Below, piece by piece: positions 59,961-64,000 of a DNA stretch of 64,000 nt. Within the stretch, counting starts at the first letter, position 1. Each line of letters starts with the position of its first letter. The notes beneath the pieces are model-generated. The model had not been told where the DNA came from. It made no database searches and saw only the letters and a list, made by a program, of their open reading frames with translations. Made by a program: the position numbers and the translations under genes. This DNA is from Candidatus Thorarchaeota archaeon (lineage in GTDB: Archaea; Asgardarchaeota; Thorarchaeia; Thorarchaeales; Thorarchaeaceae), in the NCBI GenBank assembly GCA_003345545.1, contig PRDH01000019.1:1-64000 (forward strand). The letters run 5' to 3'.

Positions 59961-60800
59961 ATCATCATTAGCAGAAAGAAGTGGGGCAAATCAACCGTCA
60001 AGACTGAGAAGACAATACGTGATGCAATTCCTAGGCCCGAGGCTCTAACTGGAATCAACGAGTACTTGGCCAAGGCTAGGTCTGTCACCCCCTACGATCT
60101 TGCCAATCGTTTCAACATCAGGATGAGTGTCGCTCGGCGAATCCTCAGAGAGAAGGAGGCTAAGGGCGATGTCATTCCTTATGTGCGGGAGAGCGGTTTT
60201 GTTGTTTACACGACGCCGGCGGAAATCCAGAAGAGAGAGGGCGGCGTCCCGATCATGATTTCTGATGCACTCGCAGAAGTTGCATCTTCAGTGAGTGCAG
60301 AACCAGTGATTACTGAGGAAATGGAACTGGCTCTCTTGGCTGCAGGTACTCCTGGAGCTGTCAAACCTAGTATGCTAGCCAGAAAAAGAAGAGAGGCTGG
60401 CGAGAAGAAAGCTCGCAAAGACACCAGACCTGAAGTGATTGTAGAACCTCTCGATATTGCTCTTGTGCGCGGCCCTGAACATGCATTCGAGGCCACCAAG
60501 AGTACTGCGGCAGGCGAAGCGGCTCCTGTAGAGGAAGTTCCAAAGAAGGCTGCTGAGAAGAAGGAAGAGAGGCCCAAGAAGGAAGTTCCGAAGAAGGCAG
60601 TTGCAAAGAAGGAAGAGAGGCCCAAGAAGGAAGTTCCAAAGAAGGCAGCTGCAAAGAAGGAAGAGAGGCCCAAGAAGGAAGTTCCAAAGAAGGCAGCTGC
60701 AAAGAAGGAAGAGAAGCCCAAGAAGGAAGTTCCAAAGAAGGCAGCTGCAAAGAAGGAAGAGAAGCCCAAGAAGGCTACATCAAAGAAGAAGTCTGAGTAA
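59961..60800 (+). CDS. rps25e: Ribosomal protein S25e with non-standard start and repeated lysine-rich tail
   Basis: The protein has about 280 residues. The first 90 match S25e: RKKWGKSTVKTEKTIRDA, then VTPYDLANRFNIRMSVARRI and KGDVIPYVRESGFVVYTT, a winged-helix fold of the small subunit. The ORF track begins at TTG 60066, which would delete 35 conserved residues. In frame back to a TAG at about 59938 there is no ATG, GTG or TTG, so initiation is probably at ATC 59961/59964 or ATT 59967, after AGGAGA. Residues from about 190 form five copies of a 16-residue unit, VPKKAAAKKEERPKKE. Confidence 0.85.
   Translation: MIISRKKWGKSTVKTEKTIRDAIPRPEALTGINEYLAKARSVTPYDLANRFNIRMSVARRILREKEAKGDVIPYVRESGFVVYTTPAEIQKREGGVPIMISDALAEVASSVSAEPVITEEMELALLAAGTPGAVKPSMLARKRREAGEKKARKDTRPEVIVEPLDIALVRGPEHAFEATKSTAAGEAAPVEEVPKKAAEKKEERPKKEVPKKAVAKKEERPKKEVPKKAAAKKEERPKKEVPKKAAAKKEEKPKKEVPKKAAAKKEEKPKKATSKKKSE
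60537..60776 (+). repeat. Five 48-base tandem repeats inside the S25e gene
   Basis: Units start at 60537, 60585, 60633, 60681 and 60729, in frame and with few substitutions. Each codes for VPKKAxAKKEE(R/K)PKKE. It is a coding minisatellite, not a CRISPR: there are no spacers. Confidence 0.9.
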
Positions 60801-61639: not shown

Positions 61640-62389
61640 TCATTCATACCCCCATGTAGTAATTGTTTTTTCTACGGGAGTTTCTCTCCGTGAGATGAAG
61701 TACACAAAAACCACTACATACATCAGGATATGTACGAGACCAACAGCGGGCCAAATGTATACGGATGCCACAGTCACACCAGAGGCAATATAGAGTGCTC
61801 CTGCTGCAATAGCTCCATTCTCGATTCCTGTACGACCTATTTCAACAAGAATTGATAGGCCTGCAGCCAACATGAAAAGAGAATACACTAGATGTGTCGT
61901 CGAAAAGTAGTTCGTAAAGTCCTTGGGATAGAGAACTTCCTCAATCATTACGAATGGTCCATTTACAATGATGTCCATCACTGAGACGATCTGCAATAAA
62001 GCTGTTACAAGACCGACAACGGCCACCTCAATTCCGAGGTTCCTGTTGATTGGCCTGTTTATTGCATAGAATCCGAGCGATTGGAGAATCACTGCGATTG
62101 AAAGACCGGCAAAGTACATTGGCAATGGAGGAATGTACGAGGGCAGGAGTACCTGACGATGCATCAGGTCATAGAGCATATTGAACTCAACTGTCATCAG
62201 GCCAACAATGCACCCAATACTCGCCAGGAGAAAGAAAGGTCTTGCTGCTTGACTGGGAATCTGCCTTTGAGAACGGGCACACTCCCTGCATGATATTACC
62301 CCGCGATATCGAACAATTTCCTCTCTGCTCAACTTCCTATTACAGAAGACACACCTAATCTCACTTTTCTCTTCAGTATGTGTCGCCAA
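61640..62389 (-). CDS. Six-helix membrane protein with N-terminal zinc ribbon
   Basis: The protein has 249 residues. The zinc ribbon is at residues 12-40 (CVFCNRKL ... CRECAR), followed by six hydrophobic helices (residues 48-235) and a short cytoplasmic tail. It resembles archaeal membrane proteins with a short cytosolic zinc finger; no transport motif is visible. It starts at ATG 62389 and lies downstream of the longin-Arf GTPase gene on the same strand, with a gap of 111 bases. Confidence 0.6.
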   Translation of the reverse strand: MATHTEEKSEIRCVFCNRKLSREEIVRYRGVISCRECARSQRQIPSQAARPFFLLASIGCIVGLMTVEFNMLYDLMHRQVLLPSYIPPLPMYFAGLSIAVILQSLGFYAINRPINRNLGIEVAVVGLVTALLQIVSVMDIIVNGPFVMIEEVLYPKDFTNYFSTTHLVYSLFMLAAGLSILVEIGRTGIENGAIAAGALYIASGVTVASVYIWPAVGLVHILMYVVVFVYFISRRETPVEKTITTWGYE

Positions 62390-62500: not shown

Positions 62501-63352
62501 CTATGCATTCTTGACCTCTGCTTTACCTTCGAGAATTGCCCTCCTGATAATCTGAATCAGGCGGTCTCTGTATGAGATATCGATGGCCACGAGTTCATAT
62601 GTTGCTACGCCAAGTATCTGTCCCACTCGTTCAGGGGTCAGAGCAGTTGGAAGGTCTTGCTTATTGGCTATGCCAATTACCTTGGCATCAGGAACCTCAT
62701 CTTTTACGAGAGACACGAGTTTCTTGCTTCTAAGCACATTTTCCAAGGTGCTATCTGTGACTATCACAACAACCTGTGCGTTCGCAATCATCTTTGCCCA
62801 TAGGATACTGAATCTTGACTGTCCTGCGAGATCCCAGAGTACGATGTTTGCATTGCTAATCTCTTCCGGCAGTTTCTTGATGCTAACACCAATAGTCGGA
62901 TCATGGACTAGGGGTAGTGTTTCACCTCTCAAGAGATGAAGTGTCGTGGTCTTTCCAACCCCTGCAAATCCCAAGATTGCGACCTTCACCATCGTGACAG
63001 CGATTTCATCAACTTTCTCATCGAATCCTGCTAATGACTGATTCGCTAGGGCCAGATTCGAATAGTCTCTCAGGAATGAATCGACAAGTTGCCCCATCTT
63101 TTCCTCTATCTGTGTAGCATCATCGGCCTTGTCAGCCACGAATATGAAGGTGAAGGGTTCTCTCTGGGAGTAGAAAATTCTTGAGCCTGCAACGTTCATG
63201 AATTCCGTCTTGCTCTCCAGTTCCATAGTCTTTAGAAAATGTGTTAGATTGACTAAGAACTCAACAAGATCCGCTCTTGTTTCGCTCTTTGTGTACTCCT
63301 TTGAGTAAATCATGTTCTCCTGTTCGCCAAGTACATAGACACCGCGGATCAT
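62501..63352 (-). CDS. Longin-like domain fused to an Arf-family small GTPase
   Basis: The protein has 283 residues. Residues 1-115 have the layout of a longin/roadblock-type fold: MIRGVYVLGEQENMIYSKEY, then FTFIFVADKADDATQIEEKM, then a long helix. Residues 120-275 are an Arf/Sar-like GTPase with G1 GFAGVGKTT, G2 threonine in HDPTIGVS, G3 WDLAGQSR and G4 NKQDLPTAL; the G5 loop is weak. In eukaryotes longin and Arf proteins act separately in membrane traffic. Its ATG overlaps the stop of the upstream winged-helix gene, so both are co-translated. No myristoylation site is seen. Confidence 0.8.
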   Translation of the reverse strand: MIRGVYVLGEQENMIYSKEYTKSETRADLVEFLVNLTHFLKTMELESKTEFMNVAGSRIFYSQREPFTFIFVADKADDATQIEEKMGQLVDSFLRDYSNLALANQSLAGFDEKVDEIAVTMVKVAILGFAGVGKTTTLHLLRGETLPLVHDPTIGVSIKKLPEEISNANIVLWDLAGQSRFSILWAKMIANAQVVVIVTDSTLENVLRSKKLVSLVKDEVPDAKVIGIANKQDLPTALTPERVGQILGVATYELVAIDISYRDRLIQIIRRAILEGKAEVKNA

Positions 63353-64000
63353 TTCGCTTCACCCCAAGTCTTCATGAGGAGTTCGAGATGCCTGCGTGCG
63401 GCCTCGGGAGTTATCTCTTTCGTTGATAGCTTCTTATCGATGATGGGCAGCACATATTCCGGCATGAATGGTTGAATTTTGGGATTCGTCAATAATGCCC
63501 ACAAATCGTCTTGGTCAAAGTGCAGGGCAACTTTGTCTGTTTCTAAGGCCCGTAGAACCTTCGTCACGACAGATAGTGGAAGAGCAGTATTTCGGGCAAT
63601 ATCTGCAGGAGAGAGTACTTGGTTTCTCAGTGAGGCAAGTACTCTATACTGAAGCCTCTCTGACAGTATTTTGGAGATCTTCTCTCTGTCTTCAAGTATA
63701 GGTGAGTTAGGATCATCTTCAGGCAACGTTGGATTGTAGCCCTTGCTGGGTGGGGCTGGCGAAAAGAACTCTGATACATATTCCATGTATCTCTGTGCTA
63801 TCTGTGGCGTCGTTTCCTTCGCCTTCTTGATTGCATCCATTGGTGGCTCCCGATAACCAACGACGTCCTTCACAAGAAAGACAATTTCGGAAGTCTTGCC
63901 AAGAAGTTCCACTGTCACAACACCCGACTGGATGAGGGGTGCCATTGCCTCCCGCAAGTCTACTTCATCTTGAATCTCGTTCTTTAGCCAGAGCGACAGT
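63349..64000 (-). CDS. Winged-helix protein upstream of the longin-Arf GTPase (5' end beyond window)
   Basis: The frame is open from the window edge (position 64000) to the stop at 63349, so the ORF-track start at 63957 is probably internal. At least 216 residues are visible. The visible N-terminal part (ELLGKTSEIVFLVKDVVGYR) looks like the end of one domain. Residues from about 110 onward resemble a winged helix (RVLASLRNQVLSPADIARNT, LPLSVVTKVLRALE). It is coupled to the GTPase gene by a four-base overlap and may regulate or bind it. The family is not identified. Confidence 0.65.
   Translation of the reverse strand, partial: LSLWLKNEIQDEVDLREAMAPLIQSGVVTVELLGKTSEIVFLVKDVVGYREPPMDAIKKAKETTPQIAQRYMEYVSEFFSPAPPSKGYNPTLPEDDPNSPILEDREKISKILSERLQYRVLASLRNQVLSPADIARNTALPLSVVTKVLRALETDKVALHFDQDDLWALLTNPKIQPFMPEYVLPIIDKKLSTKEITPEAARRHLELLMKTWGEAK

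Follow-up and report, generated by a model that had tools for sequence, protein, structure and literature searches.

A conserved gene pair of a longin-Arf GTPase and a longin-winged-helix partner in Asgard archaea suggests an ancient outside-to-inside GTPase switch

Introduction

Small GTPases number in the dozens in Asgard archaea, and gene order, as published, has offered few hints to their regulators. In MK-D1, 26 of the 74 GTPases are combined with roadblock or longin domains, and the GTPase genes generally lie outside operons with roadblock or longin genes (PMC10933270). The longins of NPRL2 and NPRL3, two GATOR1 proteins, heterodimerise (PMC8534245), and the asCOG label "NPRL2-like longin domain" is already used for Asgard archaea (PMC9834061); longin-GTPase fusions and that label are therefore both published for these organisms. 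For Asgard ArfR GTPases, an N-terminal amphipathic helix has been described (PMC12554972). The present analysis concerns two adjacent genes, one encoding a longin-Arf GTPase and the other a longin-winged-helix protein (the partner), located at the end of a 64,000-nucleotide stretch of Candidatus Thorarchaeota archaeon DNA (contig PRDH01000019.1, here C19, positions 1 to 64,000), referred to below as the window. The two genes probably make up one GTPase switch, with the partner as its dedicated regulator or scaffold and with coupling to a surface cue in many lineages. No report of the conserved pairing, of its co-duplication and co-inheritance, or of the link to surface proteins was found in the searchable literature, which excludes most subscription papers.

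A conserved and co-inherited gene pair

The partner gene lies directly upstream of the GTPase gene, on the same strand, in all 36 named Thor-, Jord-/Frey- and Sigynarchaeal loci (L076-L111), which were selected by a GTPase search and not by the partner. Since full-length relatives keep the same gene order in every one of these loci, the fusion of longin and GTPase is not a product of chance; an assembly artefact is ruled out by the same count, as is a fusion seen in this assembly only, which the first-pass annotation of the window had named as an outcome that would speak against its reading. That annotation had also read an ATGA overlap between the GTPase gene and a winged-helix gene and had proposed the winged-helix protein as a partner. 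The overlap is present in the sequence (Table 1), a short overlap is kept in most Thorarchaeial loci, and the partnership is supported by this conservation and by co-duplication of the pair. The window cuts the partner gene, leaving the C-terminal 216-217 residues inside, while C19 (88,128 bp) extends another 24 kb; following the contig past position 64,000, as had been advised, gives a complete partner of 369 residues, whose first domain has a longin fold.

At E<=0.001, all 39 Asgard genomes yielded relatives of the GTPase, many of the matches covering the Arf domain alone, and the full-length relatives range from 93% down to about 30% identity. Of 148 Asgard genomes, 113 contain the partner family (37 of 45 among the good genomes), and a single genome gives up to 13-14 matches when partial ones are counted. 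Besides the window pair (type A), Thorarchaeia contain two further paralogous pairs, type B (L032, L074, L175) and type C (L160-L163), and the three paralogues separate alike in the partner and GTPase trees. Built from 34 sequences each, the partner and GTPase trees have 20 of 31 splits in common, whereas random relabelling leaves 0.23 on average and never more than 4. Some of the common splits group type C with family f5, and type B with f9, and leave out the type A genes that those genomes also contain; the agreement is thus not merely that of the species tree. Gene order and co-inheritance together make it very likely that the partner and the GTPase form one complex.

A third longin-Arf paralogue was observed in the genome of the window (L033 649-4424, contig C17), where a 580-residue gene product without detectable homology to the partner family is followed by a 649-residue longin-Arf protein, whose C-terminal part contains a second partial match to the longin model.

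A longin domain in front of an Arf-like GTPase

The Arf-like GTPase that the first-pass annotation had recognised by its GFAGVGKTT, WDLAGQ and NKQD motifs stands. The PF00025 (Arf) match spans residues 121-269 with 70.2 bits (cut-off 22.3), and the three motifs, together with PTIG, are near-invariant across 53 diverse relatives, with G133, K134, T153, D174, Q178, N230, K231 and D233 each kept in 51-53 of the 53; G motifs and a PF00025 match above cut-off place the protein in the Arf family. The N-terminal amphipathic helix and Gly2 myristoylation site of eukaryotic Arf are absent, the Arf domain starting at residue 121 behind the longin and residue 2 being Ile.

The annotation had left the N-terminus as longin- or roadblock-like and had called for structure prediction, with a different fold as the outcome that would count against it. 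The AlphaFold2 (AF2) model of the window GTPase, built from a 34-row alignment, has a b-b-a-b-b-b-a-a topology over residues 1-117, with strands at residues 2-8, 14-19, 49-54, 57-64 and 67-74 and helices at 26-41, 79-96, 98-102 and 110-117; the predicted local distance difference test (pLDDT) scores of this region are mostly 81-94 in ten-residue blocks, with one block at 71. A roadblock domain begins with a helix before the first strand (PMC10933270). Neither the GTPase model nor that of the partner has such a helix, and both follow the longin topology; a roadblock fold for the GTPase N-terminus is thereby ruled out, and the longin half of the earlier description holds.

Alone, the N-terminal ~117 residues of the window protein have no Pfam match above cut-off. 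A profile built from 18 N-termini of the family matches AP-2 sigma from residue 1 (E=8e-5), AP mu (2.8e-4), delta-COP (4e-4) and MON1 (0.014), as well as AP-3 sigma, AP-4 sigma and VAMP7; nearly all matches are longins, the single non-longin being HTP-2 (E 0.0015). Among the 18 single N-termini, seven match Clat_adaptor_s (PF01217; best 1.8e-4, the window member merely 0.062) and two match the MON1/FUZ longin model (best 5.9e-7). By its predicted topology and the family profile matches, the N-terminus is a longin and not a roadblock domain.

The resemblance to AP sigma and mu and to delta-COP, together with the sparse clathrin-adaptor small-chain domains, unfused to other adaptin domains, that have been described in Asgard genomes (PMC10307638), would also fit a coat- or adaptor-like unit for membrane remodelling, in which the longin and the Arf domain assemble with adaptin-like partners and relay no signal. 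This is improbable, because the conserved neighbourhood contains no adaptin or HEAT-repeat gene, the neighbour being instead a longin with winged helices. Some of the small-chain domains of PMC10307638 may be the N-termini of such longin-Arf GTPases.

The partner has an NPRL2-like domain order

Since the window gene extends outside the window, the AF2 model used for the partner is that of an orthologue (L102, 76% identical), with a mean pLDDT of 87. It contains a longin (residues 4-115), a first winged helix (135-205), linker helices and a second winged helix (269-332), that is, the NPRL2 order of a longin followed by winged helices. In a Foldseek search of the PDB, the model's matches at E<1e-3 are solely chains of two GATOR1-KICSTOR entries (E 5.8e-4 and 8.5e-4), 370 and 363 residues long and aligned over about their whole length. 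Foldseek names the complex and not the chain; a length of 363-370 residues would fit NPRL2. The next matches are another GATOR1 chain, CopZ1, AP sigma, BLOC-3, Fuzzy-Inturned and Ykt6, with ArsR/MarR winged helices interspersed. By sequence, a profile of the partner matches ArsR/SmtB winged helices only among PDB sequences, and its longin alone has no longin match in the PDB or Pfam. Profile comparison of the GTPase longin with the partner longin gave an end-to-end alignment at E=3.6e-4 with a probability of just 37%.

The partner's own longin, missed in the first-pass annotation along with the surface-protein link, bears on the idea proposed there of a self-regulated GTPase whose longin acts as an effector or GAP (GTPase-activating protein). 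In such a self-contained switch, the GTPase longin would fold onto its own Arf domain and act in cis, in one of these roles or as a lid resembling a GDP-dissociation inhibitor, replacing the Arf amphipathic helix. The longin does occupy the position of that helix, and longin-Arf relatives without a partner neighbour exist, for example in G026 and in Hermodarchaeal loci. Such a switch is nevertheless unlikely, since the GTPase gene stays coupled to, and is inherited with, that of a partner bearing a longin of its own, and the Arf half of the GTPase model (pLDDT blocks of 38-56 around the switches) is too uncertain for a cis interface to be judged from it. The partner's longin and NPRL2-like architecture make pairing of the two longins in trans no less likely than action in cis.

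A related protein of 305 residues (L158 1498-2415, contig C3 of the same genome) combines a partner-type N-terminal longin with cysteine-rich, zinc-ribbon-like repeats.

Link to large surface proteins

From the partner matches, 55 partner genes were hand-picked as a spread over families, not as a random sample. A surface neighbour was taken to be a gene on the same strand, within 300 bp (most lie within a few bp), whose large product ends in a C-terminal transmembrane region; transmembrane segments were assigned by hydropathy alone, and several surface genes run off the retrieved stretch. On this basis, 31 of the 55 adjoin a gene for a transmembrane surface protein, four are fused to one, three have both surface and GTPase neighbours, and ten have a GTPase neighbour only. 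The surface proteins reach 2,400 residues (2,650 when fused to the partner), some contain Laminin_G_3, DUF2341 or FG-GAP repeats, and a basic stretch resembling RIPxxIKKI recurs just after the transmembrane segment of fused and linked giants. Surface protein, partner and GTPase occur in one gene cluster in two lineages, in the order giant-partner-GTPase in L047 and partner-giant(s)-GTPase in L160, L161 and L163. A Jordarchaeal cluster (L165 1887-5358, G036) encodes a transmembrane protein, a protein in which the Arf domain comes before the longin-like part, and a distant relative of the partner. Coupling of the partner family to surface proteins is well supported in Loki-type lineages and for type C; for the window's own pair it is an extrapolation.

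Tandem surface proteins of about 2,650 residues, with Laminin_G_3, DUF2341 and a transmembrane segment, were observed on contig C9 of G106 (L037 2689-10635 and L038 3374-11326), where the partner family forms the cytoplasmic C-terminus; there are four consecutive copies, two of them complete.

The partner could alternatively be a transcription factor that controls the operon and uses its longin for dimerisation or sensing, as the sub-threshold ArsR/SmtB-type matches of its second winged helix would allow. Fusion of its family to the cytoplasmic end of 2,650-residue single-pass surface proteins and the NPRL2-like architecture make this very improbable.

Proposed mechanism

In the mechanism proposed here, the longin-Arf protein would be the switch and the longin-winged-helix protein its regulator or scaffold. 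Pairing of the two longins would hold the Arf domain against the partner, which would control its GTP cycle as a GAP or a guanine nucleotide exchange factor (GEF). In many Asgard lineages, gene order or outright fusion ties the partner family to the cytoplasmic side of large single-pass surface proteins, so that the general function is probably to make an Arf-type switch respond to a cue from outside or from the membrane. Direct binding, the longin-longin dimer, GAP or GEF activity and the direction of signalling are what we infer; longin-to-longin contact with control of the GTP cycle, by analogy with NPRL2/NPRL3 and Mon1-Ccz1 (PMC8534245), has about an even chance of being right.

Several results weigh against this interpretation. 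The TM-scores of the partner against GATOR1 are about 0.2, so that the domain series agrees and the overall arrangement does not. PF06218 (NPR2) is above cut-off in none of the 39 Asgard genomes and has no match whatever in the genome of the window (G000); membership of the partner in the NPR2 family was therefore dropped, the likeness being one of architecture alone. The partner longin lacks a conserved arginine finger: no longin arginine exceeds 64% conservation in 75 partner sequences, and the best-conserved one, R93, is part of the long helix that follows strand 5 and not of a loop. With no such finger conserved, GAP and GEF are both candidate activities. The AF2 models are of single chains of each protein, seven of the 55 partner genes have neither a surface-protein nor a GTPase neighbour, and no surface-protein gene lies beside the window pair.

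Features and neighbouring genes of the window

The features of the locus are collected in Table 1. In Thorarchaeia the pair is flanked downstream by the coiled-coil gene and upstream by a small cysteine-rich (zinc-finger-like) gene, which here encodes 120 residues (L031 8546-8908), has no Pfam match and is kept in most Thorarchaeial loci. Positions 61640-62389, between the GTPase and coiled-coil genes, hold a zinc-ribbon-like gene with multiple transmembrane segments that occurs in some genomes of the genus only, and the product of 60066-60800 has a winged-helix-like N-terminus (S25e-like by eye) and a long Lys/Ala/Pro repeat tail.

Table 1. Positions of the gene pair, its domains and a conserved neighbour in the window
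Feature	Position	Strand	Basis or remark
Partner gene, longin + tandem winged helix, 369 aa	63349..64000, start at contig position 64458	(-)	L031 8459..7350
ATGA stop/start overlap, partner to GTPase	63349..63352	(-)	Read in sequence; ATG is the GTPase start
Second winged helix of partner	63463..63654	(-)	AF2 model; sub-threshold ArsR/SmtB-type matches
Longin-Arf GTPase gene, 283 aa	62501..63352	(-)	ATG start, open reading frame 63352..62501
N-terminal longin domain, ~residues 1-117, sigma-adaptin-like	63002..63352	(-)	AF2 topology and family profile match
Arf-like GTPase domain, residues 121-275	62528..62992	(-)	PF00025, catalytic motifs intact, Foldseek Arf/Rab matches
Conserved coiled-coil gene, 196 aa	60961..61551	(-)	Downstream of the pair in nearly all Thorarchaeial type A loci

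Comparison with known systems

A conserved, co-inherited pair of a GTPase and its candidate regulator offers one of the rare openings in Asgard archaea for naming a cognate GAP or GEF and putting it to the test. Moreover, one operon joins sigma-adaptin-like and NPRL2-like longins, two types that work in eukaryotic Arf-adaptor traffic and Rag/TORC1 signalling, respectively, and the presence of both types together makes the origin of these two systems testable. The surface-protein link, if true, would amount to a receptor-coupled G-protein system in a prokaryote. A broader and more tentative proposal, which we consider somewhat less probable than not, is that Asgard archaea possess a whole family of systems for signalling from outside to inside. 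In these, a giant single-pass surface protein would bear or attract an NPRL2-like adaptor made of a longin and winged helices, and the adaptor would govern a longin-Arf GTPase by way of a longin heterodimer; such a system would be a simple relative of both the GATOR1-Rag and the adaptin-Arf modules.

The longin- and roadblock-fused GTPases of the Asgard archaeon MK-D1 (PMC10933270) likewise include longins joined to Arf/Rag-like GTPases; in the present case a longin-winged-helix partner is conserved beside the GTPase and inherited with it. Asgard ArfR GTPases such as the Gerdarchaeal GerdArfR1 (PDB 8oum) have the Arf fold in common with the window GTPase, in which the longin stands where the ArfR amphipathic helix would be. 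MglA-MglB of Myxococcus is also a small GTPase with a roadblock-class regulator (PMC9481161), but MglB is a roadblock homodimer without winged helices and MglA is not fused to its regulator. Eukaryotic Arf and the sigma, zeta, mu and delta longins of AP and COPI bring the same two folds into partnership, and the archaeal GTPase longin is nearest AP sigma by sequence, whereas here longin and Arf form one polypeptide with no large adaptin chains alongside. NPRL2 and NPRL3 of GATOR1 have the same N-terminal longin followed by winged helices and also work with a small GTPase; in contrast to them, the partner has neither a PF06218 match above cut-off nor a conserved arginine finger, its GTPase is Arf-like with a longin of its own and not Rag, and many of its copies are tied to surface proteins.
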